52,732 bases of DNA from positions 1-52,732 of the forward strand of contig JAFQFD010000030.1 of the NCBI GenBank assembly GCA_017415715.1, read 5' to 3'. Made by a program: the position numbers and the translations under genes. This document shows, in pieces, positions 7,510 through 52,732 of this stretch (position 1 is its first letter; every line of letters begins with the position of its first letter). The notes beneath the pieces were generated by a model. It worked only from the letters and a program-made list of their open reading frames with translations. It was not told the origin of the DNA and searched no databases. The stretch is from Bacteroidales bacterium. GTDB lineage: Bacteria > Bacteroidota > Bacteroidia > Bacteroidales > UBA932.

Positions 7510-7529
7510 TGAATTAAATATTTATTGGA

Positions 7530-8603: not shown

Positions 8604-8619
8604 ACTAAGAACCAATAAT

Positions 8620-12210: not shown

Positions 12211-12230
12211 GACTTCATGATATGATATTT

Positions 12231-12260
12231 CAGGCGGCCTCAGGGTCGCCTGATTTTGTT
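12231..12260 (+). terminator. Terminator of the SusC/D operon
   Basis: A 9-bp GC-rich stem (12231-12239 with 12244-12252, one G-T pair) closes a 4-base loop and is followed by a T-rich tract (ATTTTGTTTT). It lies 21 bases after the stop of the large lipoprotein, and its T-rich tail carries the -33 box of the next promoter. Confidence 0.8.
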
Positions 12261-12285
12261 TTAACATATTGTATGCATATCTTTG
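12255..12285 (+). promoter_or_regulatory. Bacteroides-type promoter of the lipoprotein operon
   Basis: TTTG at 12255-12258 and TATCTTTG at 12278-12285 are separated by 19 bases, a full match to the Bacteroidota TTTG-N19-TAnnTTTG promoter. It lies just before the lipoprotein gene starting at 12313. Confidence 0.7.
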
Positions 12286-12301
12286 TGAATTATTCACAAA
12301 G
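12281..12301. promoter_or_regulatory. Operator-like perfect palindrome overlapping the promoter
   Basis: Two perfect 10-base arms (12281-12290, CTTTGTGAAT, and 12292-12301, ATTCACAAAG) flank one central base. The left arm overlaps the last bases of the -7 box and the palindrome covers the expected transcript start. This is the position expected for a repressor site. As RNA it could alternatively form a hairpin at the very 5' end of the mRNA. Confidence 0.45.
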
Positions 12302-12312
12302 GTAATCTGGAT

Positions 12313-14277: not shown

Positions 14278-14286
14278 ATCTGATAT

Positions 14287-15141: not shown

Positions 15142-15147
15142 TTGACA

Positions 15148-16698: not shown

Positions 16699-16890
16699 TG
16701 GATTTTCTTTTGTTAAAAAAAGAAAAAATTATAAAATTTAGAAAAATCTGCATACTGATAAATAAAAATCTTCAACAGGAAATATGAAAGCTCTTGATTT
16801 TTTCGCATTTTTGCGGAGAAAGAAAGAGGAGAGGCAGCATAAATTTTATTGCCTAAGAAAGGCCACGTTTAATTATTAATTGTAAAATTT

Positions 16891-17841
16891 ATGCAAGCAG
16901 ATTTCAGGTATGCAGACTTGATGAATGACGATGTCTTCAAACTGGTTTTCGGTCAGGAGTCAAGCAAGGATGTTATGATTGAGTTTCTCAATCGGGTGAT
17001 TACGGACAGGGTCATTGTCGACCTGGATTTTATGGACAAGGAGATGAAGTCCTTGGATCGTGACAGAAAGGATTCTGTATACGATATGTTCTGTAAGACG
17101 GATGATGGGTCAAGGATTGTTGTGGAGGTCCAGCGAAGGAAGCAGGATAGCTATATAGAACGAACTCTGTATTATTCCACTTTCCAGATCCACAATCAGG
17201 TAGATGCAGGCAGGGATAGTTATGCATTCTGTCCTGTTTACGTGATCAGCATATTGGACTTCAATATTGATGAGAATCGGGGAAATCCGGATGTGAAGAC
17301 GGTTTATCGTTTGTACGAGGAGGGTAAGCATACTCTTTTGACGGATAAGCTTACCTTGATCTATCTGGAACTTGGGAAGTTTGATAAGAAGATCGAAGAA
17401 CTGGATGGCGATGTGTTGGAAGGCTTTTATTTTTGCTTGAAGAACATGCATTGTCTTGATGAGTGTCCGGATGTGCTTGAGCATGGAGTTTTCAAGAGGA
17501 TGTTTGATATATCCGAATTGATAAAGATGGATGAAGTTACACGTTCTAAAGTATTGATGAAAATGACAACAGAAAGGGATTTGAGAAATCAGATGGCCTA
17601 TGCTAGGAAAGAGGCCATAGCTGAAGGTCTGGCGGAAGGGCGTGAAAGAGGACTTGCGGAAGGAAGAGCGGAAGGAAGAGCGGAAGGAAGAGCAGAAGGA
17701 AGAGCAGAAGGAAGAGCAGAGGGAAGGGCAGAAGGGTTGGCCGAAGCCGCTAGAAAGATGTTGGCGTCAGGAATGACGCGAGATACAATCGCAGAAATTC
17801 TTGAGTTACAGGTTGCTGAGTTGGATGATATGCTTCAATAA
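16891..17841 (+). CDS. Rpn family recombination-promoting nuclease / putative transposase (PD-(D/E)XK)
   Basis: A 316-aa protein opening with FRYADLMNDDVFKLVFGQE, the signature of the Rpn/PD-(D/E)XK transposase family. The nuclease core includes D65 in YDMFC and E79-V-Q81 in RIVVEVQRRK, spaced as in active members, and the RTLYYSTFQIHNQVDAG helix follows. Family proteins such as E. coli RpnA cut DNA and promote RecA-independent recombination, and many Bacteroidota copies are counted as defective transposon parts. After a helical region (about 190-245) the tail has six exact GRAE units (residues 258-281) and ends in a short helix. It stands alone between two lipoprotein operons. No inverted repeats or target duplications were seen around it. 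A promoter candidate near 16806-16813 (CATTTTTG) has one mismatch. Confidence 0.85.
   Translation: MQADFRYADLMNDDVFKLVFGQESSKDVMIEFLNRVITDRVIVDLDFMDKEMKSLDRDRKDSVYDMFCKTDDGSRIVVEVQRRKQDSYIERTLYYSTFQIHNQVDAGRDSYAFCPVYVISILDFNIDENRGNPDVKTVYRLYEEGKHTLLTDKLTLIYLELGKFDKKIEELDGDVLEGFYFCLKNMHCLDECPDVLEHGVFKRMFDISELIKMDEVTRSKVLMKMTTERDLRNQMAYARKEAIAEGLAEGRERGLAEGRAEGRAEGRAEGRAEGRAEGRAEGLAEAARKMLASGMTRDTIAEILELQVAELDDMLQ
17662..17733 (+). repeat. 12-bp coding tandem repeat (GRAE x6)
   Basis: Six copies of a 12-base unit (GGAAGAGCGGAA and variants) encode GRAE repeats in the Rpn-family gene. Third-position changes (GCG/GCA, GAA/GAG, AGA/AGG) separate some copies, so it is partly aged. The copy number is likely to vary between strains by slippage, always in frame. 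Confidence 0.9.
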
Positions 17842-17865
17842 GCATCATGTGTAGAAAAAGAGGTT

Positions 17866-17895
17866 GGGCAGTGCCGTAAGGTGCTGCCCTTTTTC
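17866..17895 (+). terminator. Terminator after the Rpn gene
   Basis: A 10-bp stem (17866-17875 with 17880-17889, two G-T pairs) with loop GTAA is followed directly by a T run, 24 bases after the stop codon. Confidence 0.85.
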
Positions 17896-17939
17896 TGTGG
17901 TATGTGTGTTGCTTTATTGCAAAAGTGCTGATTGATAGT

Positions 17940-17947
17940 TATATTTG
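17940..17947 (+). promoter_or_regulatory. Bacteroides-type -7 box for the nuclease/TonB operon
   Basis: TATATTTG, a perfect TAnnTTTG match, 48 bases before the first start codon of the operon. The -33 region (around 17913-17919, TTTATTG) is imperfect. Confidence 0.55.
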
Positions 17948-17995
17948 CAAGTTCAAGATGTGAAGTGAAAGCAAGTGGAATATATTATAATTTAA

Positions 17996-20134
17996 ATGAT
18001 TATGAAATTAAGAAATCTATTTGTCGGTGCGGTGGCGGCTGTCTTCGCACTGGCTGGCTGTCAGGAGAAGGAACAGAACCTCGGAACTCCTGATATTTCG
18101 ATCAGCACAAATGAGCTGACATTTGACGTAGAGGGCGGTGAGCAGGCTATTACAGTCAATGCTACACGCGACTGGAAGGTCGAGACAGATGCAGACTGGG
18201 TGGTTGTTGACCCTGCGAAGGGTGAAGCTTCGGCTGATGACCAGACCGTGACTGTCACTGTTCTCGAGAACACAGGCATGGACCGTTCTGCAGACCTCAA
18301 GTTCACAATCGGCATGAAGAGCAAGTATCTGACAGTATCACAGGCAGGCCCTGGTGGCTCGGCAGAGGCTCTCATCGTTTATTACAACGACTATGACAAG
18401 GTTGAGGCAGAAAAGACCTATGGTTCAGGATCAAGCTGGCCATATCTCGATCAGTTCGACGGCTGGATGAACCAGACAGGTACAGGTGCTGCAAATGTAG
18501 AGTATGCATACAGTGGAATGTCTGCCCGTGCAAACTCAACTTCAGACAGCAGCTATTCTGACTATGCAGGATCAGGCAAGAACAACATGTTCTTCGGAAA
18601 GTCTGCATATCTTGCAACAAAGAACATTGCACTTGGTGGCGCTACTGACTTTACACTTACATTCGGTTCCGAGAAGTATTCTCAGGACGGAGACAGCGTC
18701 TTCAAGAATGCTGAGTTCCATGTTTACCTCAGTAACGATGCGGCAAAGTGGGTAGAGATTGACTATACATTTGCCGGAACTGAAGGTGGAAGATGGAATA
18801 TTGCAGCTGCGGATTTCTCTGTTCCTGCAGGCACTGAGAACCTTTCTGTATGCGTGAAAGCGGATGTTGCCAGCGTGTACCGTATGGACGACCTGAAACT
18901 TGTGATCTCAGACGGCGGTGCCGAGGTTGATTTCTCAAAGGGCGTGGAGATGGATTTCACAGCTGGCGGCAGCACAGGCGGCGGCAGCACAACAGCTCCT
19001 GAGTCCAAGGGAAAGATGACCGTAGAGGAGTTCATCGCAGCGGCTGACACTCAGAACTACTATGAACTTACAGGTACCGTTTCAGGCTTCAATCCTACAT
19101 ATTGCAGCTTTGACCTTACTGATGCAACCGGAAAGATCTATGTGTATTCGGTTCTCGATGCAAGCAAGGCAGAGTGGACAAGCAAGATTTCAAACGGCGG
19201 TACCATCACTATCTATGGAAAGTACCTCTACTATGAGCAGAAGTCTCAGCATGAGGTGGTGGATGCTCATATTGTAAGCTTCGAGGGTGACGGCTCGGGT
19301 TCAACCACTCCGTCAGGTCAGCCTGAGTCACTGACAAAGGCGACCATTGCCGAGTTCCTTGCAGCGCCAGAGAGCTCAGATGTATGGTATGAACTCACAG
19401 GCGAGATTGTCAGCATCGAAACAGGTAATGCTTATGGTAACTTTACAATCAAGGATGCTACTGGTGAGGTATATATTTATGGTATGACTTCAAAATGGGT
19501 TGGTTCCAATGATAAGTCATTTGCCTCTTTGGGTCTGAAGGAGACCGATGTCGTGACTCTCGGAACACTCCGCGGATCATATAACGGTCAGGCTCAAGGT
19601 GGCGGAAGTGTAGTACCTGCATATTATATCAGCCATGTGCCAGGTGCTGGTCTTCCAGAGGACCCTTCAGGAACTGTAGAGTTAACCTTCTCAGCCGATA
19701 CTCAGGAATCGGCAGGTTCATACACGTCGGATTGGTCTGCTACAATTGGAACTAACAGTTGGAGGATTGTCAATTTCAATAATAATAACAACAAGTGGTC
19801 TTATATCAAGTGTGGTCATAAGGCAACATCGAATACTGCAACTATAACTACTAAGAATGCATTAGCAGGAACTATTACCTCTGTAGTCGTTCAGGTTGAT
19901 AAGATTATCGATGCATCTAAGTGTACTACAAAGTTGGAGGTAGCATCTGATGCGTCTTTCTCAAATATAGAAGAGACTGTTAATGTTACAATTGCACAGG
20001 GTGCAGTCAACTATACCTTGACAACTCCACGAGCAAATTGCTACTATCGTCTGGTTTTTGATTGCGTTGGACTTGGTGGGGACAATAACGGAAATGTTCA
20101 GATTTCTAAAGTGAAGTATCTGGCTGCAGAGTAA
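17996..20134 (+). CDS. BACON/OB-fold modular lipoprotein
   Basis: A 712-aa lipoprotein. An ATG two codons in (18002) is an equally good start. The lipobox cysteine is C22 (ALAGC). Modules: BACON (about 30-112, WKVETDADWVVVDPAKGEAS), a jelly-roll-like domain (about 120-305, with the VSVYRMDDLKL-like edge near its end), a Gly/Ser-Thr linker, then two OB-fold-like modules (about 340-430 and 440-550). Both OB modules share the plan YELTGTVSGF...SFDLTDATGKIYVY and YELTGEIVSI...NFTIKDATGEVYIYG. A C-terminal sandwich (about 560-712) follows. OB-folds of this sort occur beside nucleases and in DUF5689 proteins. As first gene of an operon with two nucleases and a TonB receptor, it may bind nucleic acid at the cell surface; this is inference. 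Confidence 0.75.
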   Translation: MIMKLRNLFVGAVAAVFALAGCQEKEQNLGTPDISISTNELTFDVEGGEQAITVNATRDWKVETDADWVVVDPAKGEASADDQTVTVTVLENTGMDRSADLKFTIGMKSKYLTVSQAGPGGSAEALIVYYNDYDKVEAEKTYGSGSSWPYLDQFDGWMNQTGTGAANVEYAYSGMSARANSTSDSSYSDYAGSGKNNMFFGKSAYLATKNIALGGATDFTLTFGSEKYSQDGDSVFKNAEFHVYLSNDAAKWVEIDYTFAGTEGGRWNIAAADFSVPAGTENLSVCVKADVASVYRMDDLKLVISDGGAEVDFSKGVEMDFTAGGSTGGGSTTAPESKGKMTVEEFIAAADTQNYYELTGTVSGFNPTYCSFDLTDATGKIYVYSVLDASKAEWTSKISNGGTITIYGKYLYYEQKSQHEVVDAHIVSFEGDGSGSTTPSGQPESLTKATIAEFLAAPESSDVWYELTGEIVSIETGNAYGNFTIKDATGEVYIYGMTSKWVGSNDKSFASLGLKETDVVTLGTLRGSYNGQAQGGGSVVPAYYISHVPGAGLPEDPSGTVELTFSADTQESAGSYTSDWSATIGTNSWRIVNFNNNNNKWSYIKCGHKATSNTATITTKNALAGTITSVVVQVDKIIDASKCTTKLEVASDASFSNIEETVNVTIAQGAVNYTLTTPRANCYYRLVFDCVGLGGDNNGNVQISKVKYLAAE

Positions 20135-20138
20135 AAAG

Positions 20139-21323
20139 ATGAAATCCAGATCAATATTCAAGGTCGCAGTGGCTGTGATAGCTGCCTGCGGCCTTATGCT
20201 GACTTCATGCAGCAAGCCGGAAGACAAGACTCGGGATATTTTCCATGTGTCAGTCAAAACTCCTAAGGTAGGTTCGGGCAAGGGTCAGCAGTTTGTGAGC
20301 GTGAAGTGCAGCGGCAGCTGGACACTCGCTCTTGTCGCAGACGAGGGCGAGGTGGACTGGGCGGAGCTCAGCGTTACTTCCGGTCAGGGTGACAAGAACA
20401 ACGTCGTCCTGAAATATGAGGTAAATGCAACTGAGAGCACCCGTTCTTTGAAGATAGTCCTTGACAATGGTGTTAAATGGACAGACTGTGCATTCGAGCA
20501 GGCTGCGACCGGTCAGCATCCCGATGACGACCCCGATGGCAGCTCGGGTCAGGTCAACGTTGACCTGACCAAGACCGGCTGGCTGGAGCTCCCGGCAATG
20601 GATGATCCTGCTCTCGGATACTACAGCCACAGCTTCAAGATGGGCGGCAAGACCTACAGGAACTATTCGTTCGGATGGAGCCAGAAGGACCGTGTGGCGC
20701 TCTGGGTGGCATATCCGCTCTGCAAGTTCTATACAAACGGAAGTGCCGGAAGAACGAATGCATGGGCTTTGGACCCGCTTCTTGGCGAGGATTCTGCGGC
20801 TCCTTTCGGAGGCTATGCGGGAAGCTATGCAAGAGGCCACCAGATCCCGTCGGCTGACCGTCAGTGTTGCTATGATGCAAATGCACAGACATTCTATGGC
20901 ACCAACATGACTCCGCAGTTGAATGACCATAACGAAGGCATTTGGTCTGACCTTGAAGGCAAGGTGCGCGGATGGGCAGACACTTCGGACACGACTTATG
21001 TGGTGACAGGAGTCACAGTGAGCGCTTCCAGCAAGAAGGAAAGAGATTCGTATGGAAACAGCGTGACCATCCCGGATGCATACTTCAAGGCGGTTCTCAA
21101 GTATAACAAAGCCTCTACTTTTGCACCATGGACTGCTGCAGCGTTTTATCTTGAGCATAGGGCATATTCAGGCAGTATTACGAAGTCACACTCAATGTCC
21201 ATAGACGAACTCGAGGAAATAACAGGAATAGATTTCTTCGTGAATCTTCCTGCCAAGGTCGGCGAGGAGCAGGCTGCAAAGCTTGAGGCTGCCGATCCGG
21301 CCAGCTCTTCGGCATGGTGGTAA
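20139..21323 (+). CDS. Secreted DNA/RNA non-specific endonuclease lipoprotein
   Basis: A 394-aa lipoprotein (lipobox LTSC, C24) with a BACON-like N-terminal beta-sandwich (about 30-128), an acidic linker, and a nuclease domain (about 135-394) of the NUC1/endonuclease G and Serratia nuclease family. The beta-beta-alpha-metal active site reads YARGHQIPSADR with catalytic H234. The metal-binding asparagine is N256 in YGTNMTPQ, and the helix WSDLEGKVRGWAD follows, as in the family. Such enzymes cut single- and double-stranded DNA and RNA with Mg2+. Lipidation suggests that it acts at the cell surface. It begins 4 bases after the preceding stop and is followed after 9 bases by a second nuclease-fold gene, which supports a role in digesting external nucleic acid. 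Confidence 0.88.
   Translation: MKSRSIFKVAVAVIAACGLMLTSCSKPEDKTRDIFHVSVKTPKVGSGKGQQFVSVKCSGSWTLALVADEGEVDWAELSVTSGQGDKNNVVLKYEVNATESTRSLKIVLDNGVKWTDCAFEQAATGQHPDDDPDGSSGQVNVDLTKTGWLELPAMDDPALGYYSHSFKMGGKTYRNYSFGWSQKDRVALWVAYPLCKFYTNGSAGRTNAWALDPLLGEDSAAPFGGYAGSYARGHQIPSADRQCCYDANAQTFYGTNMTPQLNDHNEGIWSDLEGKVRGWADTSDTTYVVTGVTVSASSKKERDSYGNSVTIPDAYFKAVLKYNKASTFAPWTAAAFYLEHRAYSGSITKSHSMSIDELEEITGIDFFVNLPAKVGEEQAAKLEAADPASSSAWW
20547..20570. repeat. 24-bp perfect palindrome inside the endonuclease gene
   Basis: A perfect, loop-free palindrome with 12-base arms and centre AACGTT. It lies in the linker between the BACON-like and nuclease domains (GQVNVDLT). It could be a protein site or simply a chance result of codon choice. 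Confidence 0.6.
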
Positions 21324-41889: not shown

Positions 41890-41921
41890 TTTGTCATTAA
41901 GCGGAAAAAACGTTATATTTG
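41890..41921 (+). promoter_or_regulatory. Bacteroides-type promoter of the tubulin/VWA operon
   Basis: TTTG at 41890-41893 and TATATTTG at 41914-41921 with a 20-base spacer form a full consensus promoter, 48 bases before the first ATG. It is the strongest promoter-like sequence of the 3' third of the window and drives all five following genes, since no terminator appears until 52544. Confidence 0.72.
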
Positions 41922-41969
41922 AAGTTCGGTTACATTCCCTTATGCTTAGGTAATCAATAACAAAATCAT

Positions 41970-43616
41970 ATGAGAAATTATTTGAATATCCTGCTTCTGA
42001 TCTGTGCTCTGTCAGTGTCTTCCAACATGCTGGCTCAGCAGACGGCAGAAGAAGCGATGAAGCGTGACTATCCGCAGCTTATGCAAAAGTATGGTTCCCT
42101 TCTGACTCAGCAGAAGGCCCATTACATCTTTGCTGTGGACATATCCAGCTCGATGCGGCAGTATGAGAGCGTTGTAAAAAGCAATTTCCTGTCTTTTGTC
42201 GAGGCTATTCCGGATGGGGACCAGGTCACTTTGATACGTGTCGCCGACGAAAATCATACAGATTATGTAAACAGCATGTATAAGTGCATCACTTTGAACG
42301 GTGATGTCAGAAATGCGTTGAAGACAGACATATATTCAGAAGATTTCAAGTTCCTCAGCAACGGCCATCCGCACGACGGTTCTGACATGTACGGCATGAC
42401 AAAGCTCATTGCTGAGGCTGTAAACACTATAGGCAGCAATGACCTGACTTTTGTCTACATGTTCACGGATTTTGAATATTGGACAAGGAGATATCATTAT
42501 AATCCGTCTAATGAGGATTGGAACGCTCTTGAGAAAATGATGGAAAACCAGAAGCAGTTCGCAATCTGCAAGTATGGTCTGGAACTTAATGTCAACAATT
42601 CGAATCTTCATCAGCATGCAATCGTAAAGCCGCAGCTGGACAAGGTTTTCGGACCGGTTGATTACCAGGCGGTATCTTCCGCAGCTGTGCTCTCGCAGTG
42701 GTTCAATCATACGATAGCCAATGTCATGGCTGTCAAGCTGAACTCTCTTGTGGAACGTGATTGGAATGAATTCGCAGAGTCAGTGAAGTGCGAGGTTTCA
42801 GCGACCGGCAGCTCGGTAAAAGTCAATGTAGACAGTCATCCTACAGACCTTGTTTCAGGATTCGCCATTTCTACAAAGCATGATGATGTCAGCCTCAGCA
42901 CCAATACGCTGCCGTTTGTTGAGAATTCAAAAGGTGGATGCGATGCCGTGATAGGCGAATATTCAGTGCGTCCGGAGTCGGTGATGCCTTCATATAAGAC
43001 CTTCGGTGGCGGCCCGATTGAAGTCCAGCTGGGGTTTGTGTCACCCTATCAGTCTGAAATCGACCTTCTGCAGCAGATCTGCAAAGACAACAGCAAGTGT
43101 GTAGGCGGATCGGAGCATCAGCTTGACATGCCGACTGTGAGAGTGTGGAATTCCATTATCCCTCTTTGGGTATGGATTGTTGCGGCTGTCATCCTTCTGA
43201 CCGTAATAGTTTCGGTTCTATATACTATCTTCGGCATAAAACTGAACAAGGAGTGGCAGGTGACTGTGACCAGGAGAGATTCTGAAGGAAACAGGGTGAA
43301 GGAGTCATCGGCCTTCATTGTGGCTCCTGCAGAAATCAAGTCTACGAAGGATAAGAGGCCTACGAATGATTGGGTTGTGAAGTTCACGGCGAAGAAGTAT
43401 AATCCTCTGAATGTGTTCAGACTGGGCAAGACCGGCTATTATGTGACTCTGCAGAGCGGCGCTTTCCTCGAAGTGATGGACCCGTTTGCCCCTAAGGCGG
43501 TCCTTCATACGCTTTCTCCAGGTGACGAGGTGTTCGTTTCCTCACATCGCAAAACGGATCAGATCATTCTTCAGATCAAGACATCATGCGGTCAATATAA
43601 GATAGATATCATATAA
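41970..43616 (+). CDS. Signal-peptide VWA-domain membrane protein
   Basis: A 548-aa protein with a signal peptide (about 1-22, NMLAQ), an extracytoplasmic VWA domain (about 48-235) with MIDAS motif D57-I-S59-S-S61, SDMYG near 145 and MFTDFEYW near 167, then a beta-rich region (about 265-385). One transmembrane helix follows (about 395-420, SIIPLWVWIVAAVILLTVIV), and a cytosolic tail (about 421-548) is also beta-rich, with SAFIVAPAEIKS and YYVTLQSGAFLEVMD. VWA domains bind partners through a metal ion. The topology would link the periplasm to the cytosolic tubulin-like protein encoded 21 bases downstream. It is the first gene of the operon. A VWA protein linked to tubulin-like genes is known in other bacteria. 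Confidence 0.8.
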   Translation: MRNYLNILLLICALSVSSNMLAQQTAEEAMKRDYPQLMQKYGSLLTQQKAHYIFAVDISSSMRQYESVVKSNFLSFVEAIPDGDQVTLIRVADENHTDYVNSMYKCITLNGDVRNALKTDIYSEDFKFLSNGHPHDGSDMYGMTKLIAEAVNTIGSNDLTFVYMFTDFEYWTRRYHYNPSNEDWNALEKMMENQKQFAICKYGLELNVNNSNLHQHAIVKPQLDKVFGPVDYQAVSSAAVLSQWFNHTIANVMAVKLNSLVERDWNEFAESVKCEVSATGSSVKVNVDSHPTDLVSGFAISTKHDDVSLSTNTLPFVENSKGGCDAVIGEYSVRPESVMPSYKTFGGGPIEVQLGFVSPYQSEIDLLQQICKDNSKCVGGSEHQLDMPTVRVWNSIIPLWVWIVAAVILLTVIVSVLYTIFGIKLNKEWQVTVTRRDSEGNRVKESSAFIVAPAEIKSTKDKRPTNDWVVKFTAKKYNPLNVFRLGKTGYYVTLQSGAFLEVMDPFAPKAVLHTLSPGDEVFVSSHRKTDQIILQIKTSCGQYKIDII

Positions 43617-43637
43617 TAATCAATAAAGCTAATAACT

Positions 43638-46600
43638 ATGCCTACAAAAGCTTATTTCATCGGACTCGGAGGCTGCGGCATGCATACCGTGGCAAATCTT
43701 CAGAACAGACTTTGTCCTACAGGGGACTTCTCTGAGTATAAATTCACCTATGTCGATACTGATGATTCGACTCTCAAAGAAGTAAACAAAAACAAGACTA
43801 TAGTAAGGACATGCGATCTGATAAATGTAGGTGACACCAATCCATATCAGGTGTATATGAATGCTCTTGGCTCACCTCTCCCAAGAGCCAGAAGATTCAT
43901 GGAATGGGTTATCAAGCAGGGCCAGAAGGAGGCGAAAGAGGCCCGTTTCACTCTCCCTAACAACTTTCTGTCAGATGGCGCAAGAGGACAGCGCATGATA
44001 GGAAGGACTGCGGTTTATCACAGATATGATAGTATATTCAGCGAATTCAGATCGAAGCTTGCCACTTTTGCCAAGTATGATCCTCATGCATCAGAGAACC
44101 AGATACCTCAGATATGGGTTGTAGCTTCATCATGCGGAGGAACGGGAAGTTCCATGACGCTTGATGTCCTCTACATGCTTGACAAGATTGTCAATGACAG
44201 CTGGAAGTCTGCTCCAGAACTCAGACTTGTGCTGTTCATGCCTCAGCCGTTCATTGAGGCAAATCAGGGAAATCCTGATTATTCGATGAATGCCTATTCA
44301 TATTTCTGGGAACTCAATGCATTCAGATTGGATCATCAGATCGGAGTTCTCGACCGTTTCTGCAACTTCAGCGTAGAGCCGACAGAGTCTTCGGGACGAA
44401 CTTTCCCTCTCTACAAGTATATCATTCCAGTAGATGTGGAAACGTCGTCCGGCACCAAGATTCCGCTCAATGACCTGTATCCGACAGTAGCAGAGCTTAT
44501 CTATTACTGCAACAAGGGAAGTGCGGCAAATGAAATGATGAGCCGCATCAGCAACGACCAGAACAATCTGAACAACCTCTCGCAGCATACGAGCTCTCGG
44601 TTCAGATGGACTCAGACACTTGTTCCATACGGATATAGGCTGATCAAGAAGGCGAATGAGGAATTCAGGGAGTATCTTCAGAAACGTGCCAGATATGAGG
44701 TGCTTCACTATGGGTTGCTTGGAGAAGGAATGCCTGATGATCCTGCAGTTCGCGAAAAGGCAAAGAAAGAATTCTCAAAGACATATGTCCTGAAGTATAT
44801 ATGTGATTGTCCGTCAGCAGATCTGACCGCTGGCGAGCAGAGCCTGCAGGCAGATGTGGAGGATCTTTATTCGGCAATACCTGTCAGCCAGACAAATCTT
44901 GACAAGCAGCGCATAAATTATTACCTGACTCAGATCGATGAACAGGAAATCGAGAGCAGAAACCTTGCGGCTGCGGCATATGATCGTGTAGTGGATTCGA
45001 TTGATCTCGGTGTGCAGGCGGCCATCATCAATCACGGCTTGAGGTATACCAAGGAACTCCTCAGTCTTGTGGATGACTTCTATCTCCAGGAGGAAGTTCT
45101 CCAGCAGCTGAAGGCGGAGTATGAAGATGCTCGGGTTTCCAAGGAAGAACAGAGGAGCAAGTGTGAGAGGTTGCTGGCAACTTACAAGGACAAGCAGGCA
45201 GCCGAGATGTCTAAGGCTCTGAATGAGTACAAGGAGATCTCTAAGAAATATGTGACTCTGGACCTTGCCATTGACATGATCGAAAACAAACTTACGCCTT
45301 ATCCTGGCGGATATCTCGAGAAACTGCGCAGAGGTGATGACCGCATCAACGGCCTGCAGCCGATAATATCGAGGATAGAAGCGGCCGCTTCGGCAGCTTT
45401 TGATTCATATGAGGCTCTGGCTAAGAAGTTCATGGAGACAGAAAAGGATGCCTTGACACAATATCTTCCGACCTTGAGTTCGATTGCGAAGGGAAAGAAC
45501 GATTCAATCTGGCCTAAGGACACCTTCTTTGACAGGATGTACAGGGACTCTATGATTGACATAGATATTGAGTATGAAAGAGCGAACAAGGTCCGCATTC
45601 CGGCAAGAACGAACAGCGGGGATAATAATCTCTGTGCCTATGTGGGACGTGTATGTGCCGGAGAGACATCTGTCTTGAAACTTGCAAAACACAATGATAC
45701 TTTCCGACTGGATCGTAATCTCAAAGAGTGGATATTGGAGCCTTTGGATCTGGCTGTGTCTGAAGCTGTGAACAGAGAAGGTTCTCAGGCAGACAAGTGG
45801 ATCAAGCTCTCATTGGAGGAATCGCTGGATATGGAGCTGATGCTTCCTGAAGGAGTGTCACGCGAGAAATTCATCAATTCCATGTCCGACAGGAGCAAGA
45901 TACCGGTGCTGTTCCCGACTGTTCCTGGAACACAGGAGCCGCCTCTTGTCCGAATCATGTTTGCAGGAGCATCCGAAAGTTTCGCACGTACTCTCGGCTA
46001 TGTTCCTGAAGACAATGCAGGCAATAAGTTTATTCAGGACAACGAGATGACTGACCGTTTTCTGATCATCAAGATGCCTCTTGGCTATGACTTCATGTCA
46101 TACAAATACTTCCTGCCAATCCAGAAGGAGTATCAGAAGAACCTTTACAATATCAGGAAAGAGATGCATGGATGTCATACACACAAGGAGTTTGCGACAC
46201 TTGATCTTGAAACAGCGGTGCGTAACACCAGACTGAGGACTCAGATATCTTATGTGACCGATCTGTTCAAAGCTGTCTTCTGTCAGGAGTTCCTGAATGT
46301 TCTTGAAAAGGAACAGAAGGATGTGTATGATCGTCTGTGGGGATCGTTCGCTTTGCCTGACTTCTCTGTTCCTTTGGCTCAGAGCGATCCATTCGGCAGT
46401 ACGTCTTCAGATCCGTTTGGAATGGCGTCCGATCCATCAGGTGCTGTTGCGGATCCGTTTGGAATGGCGTCCGATCCATTTGCATCTGCCGCAGATCCGT
46501 TTGGCGGCGGAGACCCGTTTGCCGCCCCTTCTCATAAGTTCCTTCTCAAGGCAGATTACAATAACGCATTCCGTACGCTTACGATAGATGCTCGTCAGCT

Positions 46601-46934
46601 GATAAGAAGGGATTTCGTCATAGAGTGTACCGATGAGGAAATCAGCATTGAGGCTAAGGAACTTACCACATTCACAAACTTCCTGAATGAACTTATAGAT
46701 CAGGATACATATGGAGTCTTCCATAAAGCACTTTGTTCAGCTGCAGAACTAAAGTCGCTCATGACGTCAGACAAGATCTTGAAAGATGCATATTCTAAAT
46801 TGTTCACGAAGGTTCAGGCAGCCGTAATGCAGAATCAGTTGTTTGTAATGGCTATGAACTGGAGCAAACAGCAGGTTCAGACGGAGAGAATATTCTTCAA
46901 TATTCTGAGTCAAATATATAGAGGAAATATATGA
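43638..46934 (+). CDS. Tubulin/FtsZ-like GTPase (Tubulin_2 type) with DPF-repeat tail
   Basis: 1098 aa, with no signal peptide or membrane helix. The N-terminus reads AYFIGLGGCGMHTVANL (residues 5-21), matching the first phosphate loop of FtsZ (GVGGAG). YVDTDDSTLKEV follows, like the FtsZ NTD-AL segment, and SSCGGTGSSM with GGTGSS at 167-172 is the tubulin/FtsZ signature loop. The GTPase core spans about 1-400. A long helical part (about 410-660, with EYEDARVSKEEQRSKCER) looks like coiled coil. A second mixed domain follows, then a low-complexity tail (about 916-965) with six DPF and one DPS units, and a final about 130-aa domain. This fits the large FtsZ-like families that Makarova and Koonin linked to VWA proteins and membrane remodelling. 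Its stop overlaps the next start (ATGA). Confidence 0.85.
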   Translation: MPTKAYFIGLGGCGMHTVANLQNRLCPTGDFSEYKFTYVDTDDSTLKEVNKNKTIVRTCDLINVGDTNPYQVYMNALGSPLPRARRFMEWVIKQGQKEAKEARFTLPNNFLSDGARGQRMIGRTAVYHRYDSIFSEFRSKLATFAKYDPHASENQIPQIWVVASSCGGTGSSMTLDVLYMLDKIVNDSWKSAPELRLVLFMPQPFIEANQGNPDYSMNAYSYFWELNAFRLDHQIGVLDRFCNFSVEPTESSGRTFPLYKYIIPVDVETSSGTKIPLNDLYPTVAELIYYCNKGSAANEMMSRISNDQNNLNNLSQHTSSRFRWTQTLVPYGYRLIKKANEEFREYLQKRARYEVLHYGLLGEGMPDDPAVREKAKKEFSKTYVLKYICDCPSADLTAGEQSLQADVEDLYSAIPVSQTNLDKQRINYYLTQIDEQEIESRNLAAAAYDRVVDSIDLGVQAAIINHGLRYTKELLSLVDDFYLQEEVLQQLKAEYEDARVSKEEQRSKCERLLATYKDKQAAEMSKALNEYKEISKKYVTLDLAIDMIENKLTPYPGGYLEKLRRGDDRINGLQPIISRIEAAASAAFDSYEALAKKFMETEKDALTQYLPTLSSIAKGKNDSIWPKDTFFDRMYRDSMIDIDIEYERANKVRIPARTNSGDNNLCAYVGRVCAGETSVLKLAKHNDTFRLDRNLKEWILEPLDLAVSEAVNREGSQADKWIKLSLEESLDMELMLPEGVSREKFINSMSDRSKIPVLFPTVPGTQEPPLVRIMFAGASESFARTLGYVPEDNAGNKFIQDNEMTDRFLIIKMPLGYDFMSYKYFLPIQKEYQKNLYNIRKEMHGCHTHKEFATLDLETAVRNTRLRTQISYVTDLFKAVFCQEFLNVLEKEQKDVYDRLWGSFALPDFSVPLAQSDPFGSTSSDPFGMASDPSGAVADPFGMASDPFASAADPFGGGDPFAAPSHKFLLKADYNNAFRTLTIDARQLIRRDFVIECTDEEISIEAKELTTFTNFLNELIDQDTYGVFHKALCSAAELKSLMTSDKILKDAYSKLFTKVQAAVMQNQLFVMAMNWSKQQVQTERIFFNILSQIYRGNI
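46410..46479 (+). repeat. 42-bp tandem duplication in the DPF tail of the tubulin-like gene
   Basis: A 28-base identical segment occurs at 46410-46437 and 46452-46479, 42 bases apart. This gives two copies of DPFGMASDP and adds 14 residues to the DPF-repeat linker. Perfect identity suggests a recent event. Confidence 0.85.
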
Positions 46935-49846
46935 TGAATCCGGTCTGGATAATAGATTTCTTGAAGAAGGGCTCGATAGAGTCCTTCTTCTCCACCTATC
47001 ATAAGGCATTGTTGCAGGGTGATCCTGAAATGAACCCGGCAAGATGGTTTTATGTCACCGAAGGCAAAGACATGATGTCATTGGCGGAGTTTGCCCGAAC
47101 TGCACAGACCCTCCTTCTTGACACAATGGTGAATGGGCAGCCGACCAAGAGATTGCTTCCTGCATGGGAAAACAATGTCAACAAGTCGTTGAACATTATA
47201 TTTGCAGGCGACATTGAAGACAATGCCACCCAGCGCCTGCTGCTGGAGTATGCAAAGCTTCTTTTTGAGCACAGAGACTATCTGCCTGCAGCATCGATAC
47301 GTTTCTATGCTCTCCTCTGGAGATCGACCGCATCTACTGCTGAACCTGGAGTTTCTCCGGAGACTTTTGCATTTATGCAGGCACTCACCCAGATGATGAG
47401 CAGAGATGAGAACAATCGTTTCCATAAGGTCATGTTCTTCGAGTCTTCGCTGATGCCGGAAGAAAAGGAGAAGTCTTTTGCAACAATGCGATTGGCGGCC
47501 CTCCATATCGCCACCCATCAGGATCTCGGGGATGGCGATGAGATTTCCAGACAATATAATAACGTGCTGTATAATGCCGGATCTGCCGGTACTTTCTACG
47601 AAAAGGATGTACAGCACGAGCAGGAGACATTCTTCCTGAGCAACATTCTGCTCAGTGCGCTCGTGACCGGTAATGACGGAAAATTTGTTGCGCCGCAGGA
47701 GGCGAAGGATTATCTGGACAAGCAGACTGATTTCTTTGCCAAGTTCGAGGCTGGCAATGTCGTAGAGACAATCAAGTCGGATTGCCCTCAGATACCGGCA
47801 GGTAAAGGTGCGTATTCAGTTGATAGTGAAGTCTCTCCATTCAGTCTGAATCTCAAGTCTGTATGGAAGAAATATTTCAATGATTACGTCATAAATCTGA
47901 AGCGTAATATCATAAACAAGACCAAGAAGGTCCTGTCTGAGTTCAAGCATGGTTATAATGAGATTCTCTATTCAAAGCAGGCAGAATTCGTCAACTCGAT
48001 AAAAGAGGAGATTGAGGAGAAGGTGTTTGCCATTTTCAAGAATCCGACATCATTCGATGCTGTCAGCATTCCTCAGGCCTTGGAAATCCTGGATAGAATC
48101 AAGAAGAGGATCGGTGCGATGGCGGAAGACATGAATGTCGCTTCGATTGAGGCTTTTCATTTTCCCGAATATCTTAAGGATGCACGAGAGCAGGTTGAGG
48201 CGGAAGTTCAGAACAACAATCCGAACGACATCATATCTGTTCTTGAAGGAAAGCTCAGAAGGCATCCGGTATATTTCTTCGCATCTTTTGTGCGTGCCAT
48301 TGTTCTTGGCGCCCTCTTATGCTATACCGGCATAACATTCTTCATGTCTGATGCTTCTGAGGCTGTCATCTGGGGAGCAGGCTCCGGCCTCTTCCTGCTG
48401 CCGGTCATAATTTCCTTCTGGAATTTCCGTGAACGTATAGTCCGCATAGAGGCGCTGAAGGATCAGTATGCGGCGGCTATGCTCCTTAAGTGCAGAGCTG
48501 AATTGAACCAGAGTCTGGTCAGGTGCGTAACCAAGACCTATGAGGATATAGACCAGGTGATAGAATGGATAAGGAAATACAAGTTGGAGTTTCTTCAGAA
48601 AAACCTTTCGGCTGTCTGTCCGCCGGAATTCTCTTTCGCTCCTTCGTCCCGTTTCCAACCGCTGATGAAGTGCATGCCTTATGGCGAGGGAAACGAAGGT
48701 CGGGTCATGATTCCTGCAACACGCGTTGATGTCGGTCATGATTCACAGCTTTCCGGAACATTCGGCAGATATCCGATATTGTCTGATCCACCGGTCAGCA
48801 AAGTCATAATAAAGGGAGATCAATACTCTTTCGAGGAGATCCTTCAGACCAATAATGATGATCTGATCAGGCAGCTCATCCGGGATCTTCTTCGTAAGAC
48901 TGCCAAGGCAGCTGGAAACGTAGAGCATAATGTCAAGTTTGAGGCTATACGTACTCCTAGGACCAAACTTCTCCTTTTGGACGTGTCAGGCAGTATGTCT
49001 GACGAAGACATGAGGCAACTCAAGGAGGCAGTGGCCAAGCTCTCTATGACGGCGGACATCAAGTGGATCGCATTTAATGACAAGGTTGTCAAGGTTGGAG
49101 ATACTCCGGAAGAGTTTGACAGTCTTCAGTCAGGAGGTGGCACAAACTACATCCCGGCGATACGTGAGGCGCAGAACATATGCTCTTCGACATTTGTCGA
49201 TCAGATCATCCTGATAAGTGACGGTCAGCCGTTCGAGAGTTCGGCAGATATAATCTCTGCCGCTCACGGACTGAATCAGCCGCTGCATACCATATCAATA
49301 GGCGAAAGTGGACTCTCTGTGATGAAGCAGATATCAGATGCGACTTCAGGTGAACAGATCATCGTAAATGACATCAAGGAACTTGCTGTTGAGATGGAGT
49401 CTAAATTCAATACGATATTTACAGTAGGAATATCAGGTGACTATTCTATTGGAGAGCTCATGCAGAAGTGCTATATCCCTGGCTGTGCGGAAGCCCTTCA
49501 TGCGTTCTCGGCATCAAGAATGACTTCTGGAGTCACAACGATTGCAGGTCTTCTCTCTGATTATGCCAATGAACAGGGAATGGCAGAGTGGAGGACAGCA
49601 GCAGACTTTACTTGCACTCATAATCCTGCCGTGGCTTTGAGAAGGGATGAAGTCAAGACCTATGTGCAGATGGTCTGTGCGAATGATGAAGAGGATGAGG
49701 TCAAGTCAGTATTGGGCGGAAGTTTCTTTAATCCTGTACTTTCACAGATGGAGACCGTTCCGGAAATTCTGGTGTCGGTGCTGACTCTTTGTCCAATCAG
49801 CAAGATAGGAGATCTGAAATGGGTGACATCTAATGCCACGAAGTAA
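46931..49846 (+). CDS. Membrane-associated VWA-domain protein
   Basis: A 971-aa protein; the second ATG at 46934 is an alternative start. It has no signal peptide. The large N-terminal region (about 1-440) is mainly helical and includes a coiled-coil-like part (about 320-440). Two transmembrane helices form a hairpin (about 447-470 and 478-500), so both flanks probably face the cytoplasm. The VWA domain (about 675-850) has a complete MIDAS: D684-V-S686-G-S688, T738 in GGGTNY and D764 in ISDGQP. The last 110 aa (about 855-971) are not recognised. The start overlaps the tubulin-like gene by 4 bases, a sign of coupled synthesis and direct partnership. It may be the membrane anchor or activator of the tubulin-like protein. 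Confidence 0.85.
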   Translation: MMNPVWIIDFLKKGSIESFFSTYHKALLQGDPEMNPARWFYVTEGKDMMSLAEFARTAQTLLLDTMVNGQPTKRLLPAWENNVNKSLNIIFAGDIEDNATQRLLLEYAKLLFEHRDYLPAASIRFYALLWRSTASTAEPGVSPETFAFMQALTQMMSRDENNRFHKVMFFESSLMPEEKEKSFATMRLAALHIATHQDLGDGDEISRQYNNVLYNAGSAGTFYEKDVQHEQETFFLSNILLSALVTGNDGKFVAPQEAKDYLDKQTDFFAKFEAGNVVETIKSDCPQIPAGKGAYSVDSEVSPFSLNLKSVWKKYFNDYVINLKRNIINKTKKVLSEFKHGYNEILYSKQAEFVNSIKEEIEEKVFAIFKNPTSFDAVSIPQALEILDRIKKRIGAMAEDMNVASIEAFHFPEYLKDAREQVEAEVQNNNPNDIISVLEGKLRRHPVYFFASFVRAIVLGALLCYTGITFFMSDASEAVIWGAGSGLFLLPVIISFWNFRERIVRIEALKDQYAAAMLLKCRAELNQSLVRCVTKTYEDIDQVIEWIRKYKLEFLQKNLSAVCPPEFSFAPSSRFQPLMKCMPYGEGNEGRVMIPATRVDVGHDSQLSGTFGRYPILSDPPVSKVIIKGDQYSFEEILQTNNDDLIRQLIRDLLRKTAKAAGNVEHNVKFEAIRTPRTKLLLLDVSGSMSDEDMRQLKEAVAKLSMTADIKWIAFNDKVVKVGDTPEEFDSLQSGGGTNYIPAIREAQNICSSTFVDQIILISDGQPFESSADIISAAHGLNQPLHTISIGESGLSVMKQISDATSGEQIIVNDIKELAVEMESKFNTIFTVGISGDYSIGELMQKCYIPGCAEALHAFSASRMTSGVTTIAGLLSDYANEQGMAEWRTAADFTCTHNPAVALRRDEVKTYVQMVCANDEEDEVKSVLGGSFFNPVLSQMETVPEILVSVLTLCPISKIGDLKWVTSNATK

Positions 49847-49870
49847 AACACACAAATAGATAAGACCGAA

Positions 49871-51550
49871 ATGAATGCAATGCTTATATTTTATCTGATA
49901 GTTCTGTTCTTTGCTTTTGCCCTGCTTCTGATCTATCTGTTTTGTCGTTTTGCACGCGTATATCGTACGCTGTCGTCTGGAAAACGTGAGTTTGTCGGCT
50001 ATGTGTGGAAGTGGTCACGGACATACATCATATATGACGGCATACCTTTCTTTTTCGCAGACAGGATAGGTTTTATAGATCAGAATAAGAACATCTATCT
50101 CAAATCAGAGAACAGCCAATATAATTTTGTCGAGACCCAGTATGGCTCGGTAACTGATGACGGTCTGATTTCAGACACAAACAATAATGCGATGGCATCC
50201 TGCGATTCAATAGGAACGTCTTCGCGCCGGACAGTTGTGACGGATGCCTCCGGCAACGAAATCGCATTTGCAAAAACCGGATTGCGTAAAGGGGATGACC
50301 TTCTCATAAGAGCAGCGGCTACAGGCGCTTTGTGCGCTCTTAATTCTGAGAAAGACAAGGCTCTGCGTGCTGACGTGCGTATAGGGTTCAAGGACCTGGC
50401 GCTCCCTTCTGCACTCATATTCATGCTTCTTTTTGTGCCGCTTGCGCTTCTTGGATATGATACTTCCATATTGTCCTTCCTCGGCTCTGAGATTTCATAC
50501 ATTTCTTATATGCTTCTGGCATATGCATTCATATGTTGGACGCTGTATTTCATAAAGAAATGCATGACGATGAGAAACAGATCCATGGTGTATTTCCTTG
50601 GTCTGGTAGACCGCAACATCGGTCTGACAGCCTGGAACATAATAATAATAGTATTGTCGGGTCTGCTTTCGCTTGCCAGTCTGTTCATCTGCAATTATAC
50701 CCTGTTTCCTCTCTTTCTCGTGCTTTTCCTCGGTTTTGTGATCAATCTCGGTTGCTTTAAGGATGAGTGGAAAGTTGTTGATCCATGTTCTTCGTGGGGA
50801 CCGAAATGGGGAGGATCCCGTCGCGCCGGACAGGCTCCTAAAGCCCATGTGCTGGGAACGCTTGAGGTCGTGTATTCATGGGTGCCTGTTCTTGAGGCCA
50901 AGGGTATTGCTCATGCCAATGAGGAAGTGGTGCTTACTTTTAACGAATCTGATTTCGATCCGTCTGCTGGCAGGGTAAGACGGGCTAATCCATTTGCCGA
51001 AGGACCAGTAATGTCCCATGACGAACTTAAATCAAAGGCAAAGACAGTGATGAAAGGAAGCGACGGTCCGGAAAACGATGAGCGCAAAGCCCTTGTGGCA
51101 ATCGTCAACAGTGCCTATCAGATCTGTCAGAGATACAGTCTGGCTGACTTCGAATTGTATGACCTGATCCTCATGTTCTGCCAGTACAATATCGAGTATC
51201 ACGATGATAAGGAATGCGACACCATAGGAAATGTTGAGGAATATTTCCGTTTCGCTGCTGAAACCCTGGTTGACAGGAAGGGAGACTGTGACTGCAAGTC
51301 AATCCTTGCTTATAAGATTTTTGAAGTTCTAGGAGTCAATGTTGACCTGGCCTTGGTGAAGAGCAACAGTACCGAATATAATCACGTGGGTCTCGTGCTC
51401 CATAAGGACTCCACTTCTGTCGTTCCTATTCCTCCTTCTTATCATCAGTATTCAAGAGGGCTGATCTATTGTGAGACTACGGGAGAGGCATTTGCCCCTG
51501 GTGAGGTCCCTCCAGGAATAGACATAGACACAATTCAGTTGATAAAGTGA
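49871..51550 (+). CDS. Multi-pass membrane protein with transglutaminase-like (papain-fold) domain
   Basis: A 559-aa protein with an N-terminal helix (about 5-27), a soluble insert (about 30-175) and four or five further helices (about 177-197, 205-230, 249-270, 275-297), then a soluble C-terminal half. There, residues about 400-540 form a transglutaminase-like domain with a full catalytic set: C473 in RKGDCDCKSILAYKIFEVLG, H505 in YNHVGLVL and E535 in YCETTGEAF. Such domains work as proteases, peptidases or transamidating enzymes. It follows the VWA gene after 24 bases. The next gene begins within its stop codon (TGATG), so the two are translationally linked. The side of the membrane that the catalytic domain faces cannot be settled by eye. 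Confidence 0.8.
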   Translation: MNAMLIFYLIVLFFAFALLLIYLFCRFARVYRTLSSGKREFVGYVWKWSRTYIIYDGIPFFFADRIGFIDQNKNIYLKSENSQYNFVETQYGSVTDDGLISDTNNNAMASCDSIGTSSRRTVVTDASGNEIAFAKTGLRKGDDLLIRAAATGALCALNSEKDKALRADVRIGFKDLALPSALIFMLLFVPLALLGYDTSILSFLGSEISYISYMLLAYAFICWTLYFIKKCMTMRNRSMVYFLGLVDRNIGLTAWNIIIIVLSGLLSLASLFICNYTLFPLFLVLFLGFVINLGCFKDEWKVVDPCSSWGPKWGGSRRAGQAPKAHVLGTLEVVYSWVPVLEAKGIAHANEEVVLTFNESDFDPSAGRVRRANPFAEGPVMSHDELKSKAKTVMKGSDGPENDERKALVAIVNSAYQICQRYSLADFELYDLILMFCQYNIEYHDDKECDTIGNVEEYFRFAAETLVDRKGDCDCKSILAYKIFEVLGVNVDLALVKSNSTEYNHVGLVLHKDSTSVVPIPPSYHQYSRGLIYCETTGEAFAPGEVPPGIDIDTIQLIK

Positions 51551-52545
51551 TGAAATCGACATTCAATCTTATCCTTTTACTGATTGTTCCTGTATTATGG
51601 AACTGCATGTTCATACAATGGTGCATCAACACTCGCGATGATGCACCATTGTCACAAGTGCAGATACCGGAATCGACTATAGCGTTTCTGGATAGCCTCG
51701 GCAGTCGACTTATGGGAGATGATGACCACTTGATACTGCGTTGGGTGGATTCTCTGGATGTTGATTCATGGAATAACAGAAACGACTATGGACAGGACAG
51801 CCTTTATGTATATGAGGCAGACAGTCTGTTTATAATCTATTCTGACCGTGATGACAAAGAGTTGATGGAAAAGGTCCGTCAGTATGCATGCAATGCTGTC
51901 AGACCTTTGGAGCAACTGATGGGGCATTATGTCTATCCAAGTGAGCTGAATGGCAGAAAGCTTCCCTTGTATCTGTGCTCGGATACGGACAACTATCAGA
52001 AAGTCTGTTGTGAACTTGCAGGTGATGATGATTACTCTAAGACATGGGGGCTTTGTATTTACTCATATTCCGGAGTAGATGTTCAGACCCGAGGCATCAC
52101 ACTCAATTATGGCAGCATGCGGAAACTCTCCATGAGCCCGGAAGTCGATCTTAATGCCACCATATGGCACGAAATGAATCATTATGTGTATTTTCAGTCT
52201 ATAGATCTCTCGACAGAACTTTGGATGCATACATGGCTTTATGAGGGACTGGCAGAGTATTTCTCATCGCAGATAAAGAAACAGACGACGGCTCTGTCTT
52301 CGCAGGAGAAGTCAGCTGCTGACAGAAATCATTTGAACTCATCATTCACTCCGTTCATGTTCAATTACAGCGGAGGTGAAATCTTCTATGACTATCTGGA
52401 GGAAGCATATGGTAAAGACGGCGTGTCAAGGTTTGTTCAGGGTATTTACGATAAGCCTGTTCCTGAAGTCCTGAAGATGTTTGATTCTGACGTCAGTCTT
52501 GCTGAACGAGGATGGCGGAATTACATCAAGGAGAATTATATATAA
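51550..52545 (+). CDS. Membrane-anchored gluzincin-type zinc peptidase
   Basis: 331 aa from the ATG at 51550, which shares its A with the TGA of the preceding gene. A GTG one codon earlier is an alternative. The N-terminal hydrophobic segment (about 4-25) is a signal anchor or uncleaved signal. The zinc site is H207-E208-M-N-H211, with third ligand E232 in WLYEGLAEYFS, 21 residues further on. This is the HExxH plus downstream E plan of gluzincins of the kind listed as putative peptidases (DUF1570/M1-like). The last 60 residues contain YDYLEEAYGKDGVSRFVQGI, common after the active site in such proteins. It is the last gene of the tubulin/VWA operon. The target is unknown. A strong hairpin lies in the 5' part of the coding sequence (51615-51652). 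Confidence 0.8.
   Translation: MKSTFNLILLLIVPVLWNCMFIQWCINTRDDAPLSQVQIPESTIAFLDSLGSRLMGDDDHLILRWVDSLDVDSWNNRNDYGQDSLYVYEADSLFIIYSDRDDKELMEKVRQYACNAVRPLEQLMGHYVYPSELNGRKLPLYLCSDTDNYQKVCCELAGDDDYSKTWGLCIYSYSGVDVQTRGITLNYGSMRKLSMSPEVDLNATIWHEMNHYVYFQSIDLSTELWMHTWLYEGLAEYFSSQIKKQTTALSSQEKSAADRNHLNSSFTPFMFNYSGGEIFYDYLEEAYGKDGVSRFVQGIYDKPVPEVLKMFDSDVSLAERGWRNYIKENYI
51615..51652 (+). repeat. Perfect 14-bp inverted repeat near the start of the gluzincin gene
   Basis: Arms at 51615-51628 and 51639-51652 are fully complementary around a 10-base loop. It lies 65 bases after the start codon, encodes ordinary residues (QWCINTRDDAP) and lacks a T run, so it is not a normal terminator. It could slow ribosomes or polymerase, or protect the mRNA. 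Confidence 0.8.
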
Positions 52546-52580
52546 AAAGAATCCTGGCCAACCGACCAGGATTCTTTTTG
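52544..52580. terminator. Terminator of the tubulin/VWA operon, active in both directions
   Basis: A perfect 14-bp stem (52544-52557 with 52566-52579) has an 8-base loop, an A5 start and a T5 end. It starts inside the stop codon of the peptidase gene and lies between two convergent genes, so it serves both. Confidence 0.9.
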
Positions 52581-52598
52581 TTATATATTATAAAAAAC

Positions 52599-52732
52599 TT
52601 ATGCCATCACGCTGCCTGGGATGATGCCGTTTGCAACGAGGTATGCTACTACTGCTGTTACAGTGAGGCATACGAAGATGAGGGTTGCAAATGCCTTTCC
52701 GATGATCTCGAGTCTCTTCTCCCAAACCTTGT
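52599..52732 (-). CDS. C-terminal end of a membrane protein (cut by the window edge)
   Basis: On the minus strand an open frame enters from the right edge and ends with TAA at 52601-52599. It encodes the last 43 residues of a protein: KVWEKRLEIIGKAFATLIF followed by VCLTVTAVVAYLVANGIIPG and VMA. A hydrophobic stretch of about 20 residues reads as a final transmembrane helix preceded by a positively charged segment. The codon use fits the neighbours and a terminator lies just downstream, which supports a real gene. The family cannot be named from this piece. Confidence 0.6.
   Translation of the reverse strand, partial: KVWEKRLEIIGKAFATLIFVCLTVTAVVAYLVANGIIPGSVMA

Follow-up and report, generated by a model that had tools for sequence, protein, structure and literature searches.

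A five-gene Tubulin_2/VWA operon with two enzyme-like membrane proteins in Bacteroidales: a candidate switch for a membrane-tethered protease

Operons that combine GTPases of the FtsZl1/Tubulin_2 family with vWA proteins were described by Makarova and Koonin in 2010 (PMC2875224). In these systems, a divergent GTPase of the tubulin family, with T1 and T4 loops and a coiled-coil or helical C-terminal part, shares its operon with a vWA gene and with genes for membrane proteins particular to the lineage. The locus analysed here shares all of these traits and is of this parent kind, but differs in that two enzyme genes are fixed partners, while some sister loci carry a papain or a calpain. Neither peptidase nor transglutaminase occurs as a word in the main text of that article, whose unnamed families A1-A2 and B1-B9 may include some of the proteins treated below. 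Among open-licence full texts, no functional test of the FtsZl1 family was found, and nothing came up that ties it to transglutaminase-like, papain or calpain partners. The FtsZl1-vWA parent kind is already known, whereas the link to proteases was not found in the literature searched.

Likenesses extend to other vWA systems. The GAP1-N2 GTPase-centric systems (Kaur et al. 2020, PMC7159879) also have a tubulin homologue with a coiled coil, two vWA proteins, a membrane location and a proposed regulated assembly; as far as that text describes them, they comprise GTPase and GAP1 components, and their tubulin theme comes from Firmicutes and Actinobacteria. In the same text, transglutaminase occurs once, for VMAP. 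The MoxR-vWA ternary systems (PMC7159879, PMC12839542) are similar in joining vWA, an NTPase switch and variable peptidase domains, but the NTPase of the present locus is tubulin-like, not AAA+, and the parts are separate genes. Pfam searches of the five proteins at an E-value of 0.1 gave no match to a P-loop GTPase and, with regard to MoxR, none to any AAA+ ATPase; the locus would work like the vWA-NTPase conflict systems but is not one of them. Pfam and PADLOC revealed no VMAP or iSTAND protein among the five, and PADLOC models gave no match in them at E 0.1.

The window, i.e., the whole stretch of DNA analysed, is one entire contig of 52,732 bases, so no sequence is visible past 52732. The features of the locus are as follows.

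41890-41921, plus strand: Bacteroides-type promoter-like site TTTG-N20-TAnnTTTG, 48 bases upstream of the VWA1 gene.
41970-43616, plus strand: VWA1, 548 aa, with a signal-peptide-like start, a VWA domain, a predicted TM helix at about 396-414 and a tail of ~130 aa (Pfam, alignment, topology).
43638-46934, plus strand: TUB, 1098 aa, a GTPase of the Tubulin_2/FtsZ-like kind, helical over a long stretch at about 423-600 (Pfam 3.2e-32, model).
43662-43679, plus strand: T1 loop GLGGCG of TUB, residues 9-14 (alignment).
44136-44150, plus strand: T4 loop GGTGS(S) of TUB, residues 167-171 (alignment).
46931-49846, plus strand: VWA2, 971 aa, with an N-terminal part of unknown fold, a predicted two-TM hairpin at about 447-496 and a C-terminal VWA domain (Pfam, alignment, topology).
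48980-48994, plus strand: MIDAS core DVSGS of VWA2, residues 684-688 (alignment).
49871-51550, plus strand: TG, 559 aa, with TM1, a beta-rich domain, four further predicted TMs and a C-terminal transglutaminase-like domain (about 379-559).
51287-51475, plus strand: putative catalytic residues of TG, C473 (51287-51289), H505 (51383-51385) and E535 (51473-51475) (alignment).
51547-52545, plus strand: HEX, 332 aa, with an N-terminal anchor and an HExxH...E metallopeptidase-like domain; start GTG at 51547 or ATG at 51550.
52168-52245, plus strand: putative zinc site of HEX, HEMNH (52168-52182) and E233 (52243-52245) (alignment).
52542-52581, plus strand: intrinsic terminator-like hairpin of 16 pairs, the longest stem in the terminator scan.

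A preliminary description of this DNA had placed five genes, with stop-start overlaps or short gaps, between one promoter and one terminator. The ORF check recovered five plus-strand reading frames over 41970-52545, at or near the earlier positions; neighbouring frames are 21 and 24 bases apart in two cases and overlap by 4 bases in the other two, and a single five-gene operon is supported. The TTTG-N20-TAnnTTTG pattern is a consensus for Bacteroides promoters, and it matches the window twice against 0.35 expected, a count reached in 5 of 100 shuffles; the hairpin follows at the other end. The general scans, by contrast, did not rise above chance, with 21 E. coli-type sigma-70 promoters found against 18.0 expected in the window and 6 terminator-like sites, below the chance mean of 8.5.

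The affiliation of TUB with the systems of Makarova and Koonin, also proposed in that description, is borne out by the vWA gene in the operon and by the match to Tubulin_2 (PF13809), which reaches 3.2e-32 and 112.6 bits (cut-off 27). Across 10 of 10 aligned homologues, G9, G11, G12, G14 and the stretch G167-S171 are invariant. The model of the 43638-46934 product shows the expected tubulin fold, its confidence being low beyond about residue 600. The T7 loop motif, NxDxxD/E, is needed for GTP hydrolysis by the polymer. In the TUB alignment no clear motif of this type is seen, model confidence being low in the part after about residue 600; the D-x-x-T pattern near residue 604 was weighed as a T7 candidate, a position at which L068 has E and at which the other types do not align. 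Because a canonical FtsZ is encoded on contig C23 of the same genome, TUB is not the division protein. A sequence search of the PDB returned nothing convincing for TUB, TG, VWA1 or VWA2.

The motif counts that follow refer to 11 of the 13 five-gene rows, the two others being L066, identical to L065, and L058, which is close to L069. In VWA1 the MIDAS consists of D57xSxS and D167, and D57, S59 and D167 are invariant in 11/11 loci. The VWA match of the window's own VWA1 is weak (E 0.0055, under the Pfam cut-off), while the domain is clear in the VWA1 of the distant relative L131 (2.8e-9). From its sequence, the VWA domain of VWA1 is predicted to be periplasmic and the tail of about 130 aa cytoplasmic. 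VWA2 is matched by VWA_CoxE at 5.9e-7 (29.6 bits against a cut-off of 26.4), and both ends of its TM hairpin are predicted to be cytoplasmic. A C-terminal VWA domain with MIDAS is found in VWA2 at only three of the 11 loci (the window, L057 and L068), its absence being judged by lack of a Pfam match at three loci and by alignment at the remaining ones. The two-VWA arrangement, which had been thought specific to this version, is therefore not general, whereas the two enzyme genes do mark the five-gene type.

For the window's TG protein Pfam gave no match, but DUF553 matches three of its homologues above cut-off, and the TG model resembles transglutaminase-like enzymes. The Cys-His-Glu triad, in this order, is complete in one or more domains at 11/11 loci; in six of the 11 proteins the domain is duplicated in tandem, and the triad is intact in the second copy alone, Cys being replaced by Ser or Ala in the first. 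A loss of the Cys in L061-L067 and L064 was considered and rejected, since the domain search found a second, intact copy there. It is improbable, in our estimate, that TG acts as a cross-linking or amide-forming enzyme, or as an amidase, modifying TUB or a membrane partner so as to fix an assembled scaffold without any protease output. Charge patterns suggest that the transglutaminase-like domain lies in the cytoplasm.

The HEX gene, earlier called a gluzincin, has HEMNH and E233 in the window, and its matches to peptidase models all fall below cut-off (DUF2268, 20.3 bits against 23.6; flagellinolysin, 3.9e-9 and 36.4 bits against 205). The earlier domain assignments are supported, but the metallopeptidase motif is not constant across the type: HExxH is present in HEX at 5/11 loci (the window, L057, L068, L069 and L027) and nowhere in HEX of the other six. 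These six form one clade on the TUB tree, which indicates one loss event and not six, and within that clade HEX shows dN/dS values of 0.044 and 0.171, so that the protein still seems needed despite the loss of the motif.

Our preferred, though tentative, reading is that the operon encodes a trans-membrane switch controlling a membrane-tethered protease. VWA1 would sense a periplasmic ligand through its metal-dependent MIDAS, and its state would be passed through the single TM helix to the cytoplasmic tail. TUB, which would bind GTP and carries a predicted long helical arm, would assemble on the cytoplasmic face with the two-TM VWA2 and serve as a gate or scaffold. The output would come from the Cys-His-Glu domain of TG, tethered to the membrane and facing the cytoplasm, and HEX would be an auxiliary peptidase, retained as a protein even where its catalytic site has gone. 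The trigger might be an invader or envelope stress. The sequence shows the gene set, its linkage, the conserved GTPase loops, MIDAS and triad, the constraint on the genes and the other protease types of sister loci; the topology, the GTP-driven assembly, the sensing and the proteolysis are inferred. LapG is periplasmic and controlled by c-di-GMP; relative to the LapG/LapD pair, the cysteine-hydrolase domain here is predicted to be cytoplasmic and tethered. If the tethered-protease switch is real, the functions of tubulin-family GTPases would extend beyond filaments, division and DNA segregation.

The same components could be read as an apparatus for envelope or inner-membrane remodelling, as suggested in the preliminary description and, for the family, by Makarova and Koonin; membrane-bound TUB filaments would then be anchored by VWA1 and VWA2, and envelope proteins would be trimmed or cross-linked by the enzymes. 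We consider this unlikely. The predicted cytoplasmic position of the TG domain counts against envelope processing, the five proteins show no Pfam or NCBIfam match to a peptidoglycan- or lipid-acting family at E 0.1, the T7 polymer loop was not identified in TUB, and the block is rare, with 4 of 400 genomes in its genus. With an enzyme as constant partner, its active site definable, and with cysteine proteases of other families in some sister loci, the general membrane-remodelling proposal becomes a testable question, namely whether a relative of tubulin turns on a tethered protease.

The coherence of the block is seen from its distribution. In a tree of 36 TUB proteins, which omits L066 and one protein under 500 aa, 12 proteins including that of the window form one clade with an SH-aLRT support of 100, and the other four genes are present in 12/12 of its members, as judged by per-protein profiles, with tblastn supplying VWA2 in L058; L066, whose sequence duplicates that of L065 exactly, also has all five. 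The co-occurrence on which the preliminary description depended is thus observed throughout the clade. Outside it, not one of the other four genes accompanies any of the 24 TUB rows, some of them on short contigs (e.g., L032, L042, L073 and L074). A TUB search of 60 genomes near the window's returned one relative, G017, in which the other four genes adjoin in identical order. With a profile built from two TUB rows, matches were found in 13 of the 400 genomes sampled in the genus (150 of the 400 being 90% complete or more) and at 11 loci in GTDB contigs, two of which (L059 and L060) are apparently the same contigs as those of G722 and G017. Four of these 13 genomes carry the five-gene type (the window's own, G017, G679 and G722), and the block is rare in its genus. 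In the order sample, Tubulin_2 matched over cut-off in 16 of 393 genomes; of the 15 others, 14 neighbourhoods were read (G117 being left out) and none is of the five-gene type. The window's TUB alone found no match in the plasmid collection, the phage collection or GTDB contigs, and profile A6 found none in IMG/VR. The TG profile matched 21 of 395 genomes of the class Bacteroidia, including the window's, most matches spanning the TG-domain part only. A Tubulin_2 search in 17 of the 20 other TG-positive genomes gave just two short matches, in frames of 498-508 aa that are probably FtsZ, so no TG-tubulin link exists in those genomes. Gut bacteria carry the five-gene block, and the relatives of the window's genome are gut Bacteroidales.

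The five genes appear to have been inherited together. Their trees largely agree, sharing 5 to 7 of 7 splits in pairwise comparison over 10 rows (without L066, L058 and L067). For two pairs within one subtype, dN/dS values of the five genes lie between 0.03 and 0.17; in the window's own subclade dS is saturated. The host phylogeny tells another story: the rpoB tree, which covers the hosts in which rpoB was found and hence lacks those of L064, L067, L068 and L069, groups the window with G017 and with two more members of its genus, at 86-92% identity to the window, and sets apart the hosts of L057, L061, L062, L063 and L065 (65-72%). On the TUB tree, the window stands with L068 and L057, and the G017 copy with L061-L067 and L064, the copy of a Fibrobacter MAG. 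That MAG may be contaminated. The conflict between the two trees suggests transfer, and transfer of the whole block would be its best explanation; ancient duplication followed by loss is possible. Two different copies of the block in one genome were not seen in the genomes searched, G1176 having two identical contigs. L065 and L067 share the block at 94.7% identity, from 7208 to 20235, and nothing to the left of it.

Rarity and conflict with the host phylogeny are also what would be expected if an invader set off the same switch and the protease were the effector of anti-phage or anti-element defence. Such a role would further fit L062 and L065, whose hosts are 98.0% identical in rpoB and which have the block in common, at 81.8% DNA identity, but nothing left of it. 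It would also fit the proposal of related vWA systems as conflict systems (in the text of PMC7159879) and the surroundings of plasmid tubulins outside the phylum. In 3/3 Thermales plasmids, brxL comes after a vWA-tubulin-hypothetical series (a transposase intervenes in L132), and helicases, HmaC (L137) or a GajB-like protein (L133) are nearby; on Azospirillum plasmid p2, two caspase-family genes stand beside the tubulin on the opposite strand. Even so, a defence role seems quite unlikely to us: no PADLOC model matches the five proteins, and just 8 match among 62 flanking ones, with one protein each at E 1e-5; neither the plasmid nor the phage collection has a match to the window's TUB, and IMG/VR has none to profile A6; and the other 3 tubulin plasmid records viewed have no brxL (6 of 7 records were viewed), two of them having neither brxL nor caspase-family genes.

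Sister loci bear on the tethered-protease switch. The gene next to TUB in L075, L077, L124 and L125, from other Bacteroidales, encodes a papain C1 membrane protein (E 5.6e-23 to 5.5e-16) in which Cys, His and Asn are present by eye, and a calpain C2 domain (1.1e-16) lies in a large membrane protein adjoining TUB in L070; several of these loci have weak VWA matches near TUB. Among distant loci, L130 carries a TG relative with the C-H-E pattern two genes from TUB (E 1.6e-15), and L131 has the order HEX-VWA1-TUB-VWA2-like up to the contig end. With TG, papain, calpain and HEX profiles, such a gene was found within 4 genes of TUB in 20 of 43 Tubulin_2 rows (19 before a correction for L058), a count that is not unbiased because the profiles were built from these very proteins and because L124 and L125 were fetched by a papain search, which also fetched a third locus, L126, without TUB. 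The 20 rows are the 13 five-gene rows and L070, L075, L077, L124, L125, L130 and L131; the other 23 have none of the four enzyme types tested within 4 genes, and beyond that distance no enzyme profile matched except at L058's own two genes.

The constant pair across loci is a periplasmic VWA protein and a tubulin-like GTPase. In Bacteroidota, the recognised enzyme beside this pair mostly has a membrane-tethered cysteine-hydrolase fold, which supports the tethered-protease switch, and papain or calpain would replace TG as the output domain in some sister Tubulin_2 loci. The papain and calpain loci point to protease control as a probable theme of part of the Tubulin_2 family. A wider proposal, which we hold to be possible but doubtful, is that FtsZl1-type GTPases are general switches for membrane-tethered proteases, with a constant core of VWA sensor and tubulin and a cysteine protease swapped between lineages (transglutaminase-like, papain, calpain and perhaps caspase), as a tubulin counterpart of MoxR-vWA or inflammasome-like control.

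In L063, one extra papain-like gene (1.8e-10) lies four genes from TUB.

In one subtype of the five-gene loci (L061-L067), VWA1 is preceded by a gene of 298 aa, which is found at the following positions in two of these loci:

L065, 7356-8249: 298-aa gene ahead of VWA1
L067, 7358-8251: 298-aa gene ahead of VWA1

Between L065 and L067, dS for this gene is 0.95, against 0.12-0.26 for the five core genes of the block, and it may therefore have been exchanged independently of them. A single MAG (G1176) contributes two contigs, L065 and L066, with the same sequence over 21,004 bases and the block present on each; the pair is probably an assembly duplicate. To the left of the block, two serine-recombinase-like genes were recognized by eye in L067 (3-2199).

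The version of the block in genome G017 (L027) carries a modified transglutaminase-like protein (TG) and a further gene beyond the metallopeptidase-like HEX:

L027, 3318-6593: TG with an inserted FGE-sulfatase domain (domain match 9.4e-29)
L027, 1010-2272: BspA-type LRR gene downstream of HEX; it also matches TerB weakly

In the window, a small-membrane-protein frame was read by eye on the minus strand just past the terminator (52590-52732), and it seems to continue beyond the contig end.

Protease-type genes also lie near Tubulin_2 genes outside the five-gene type:

L070, 128-10227: two differing Tubulin_2 genes with a calpain-domain membrane protein between them (single locus)
L038, 5428-7500: retropepsin-like aspartyl protease domain (domain match 1.7e-14) within a TPR protein

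The gene for this TPR protein sits two genes upstream of a Tubulin_2 gene.

On three Thermales plasmids (L132, L133 and L137), vWA, tubulin and hypothetical genes, in that order, are followed by brxL, with helicases or HmaC close by; this set is possibly a defence system absent from PADLOC. In L132, a transposase separates the first three genes from brxL.
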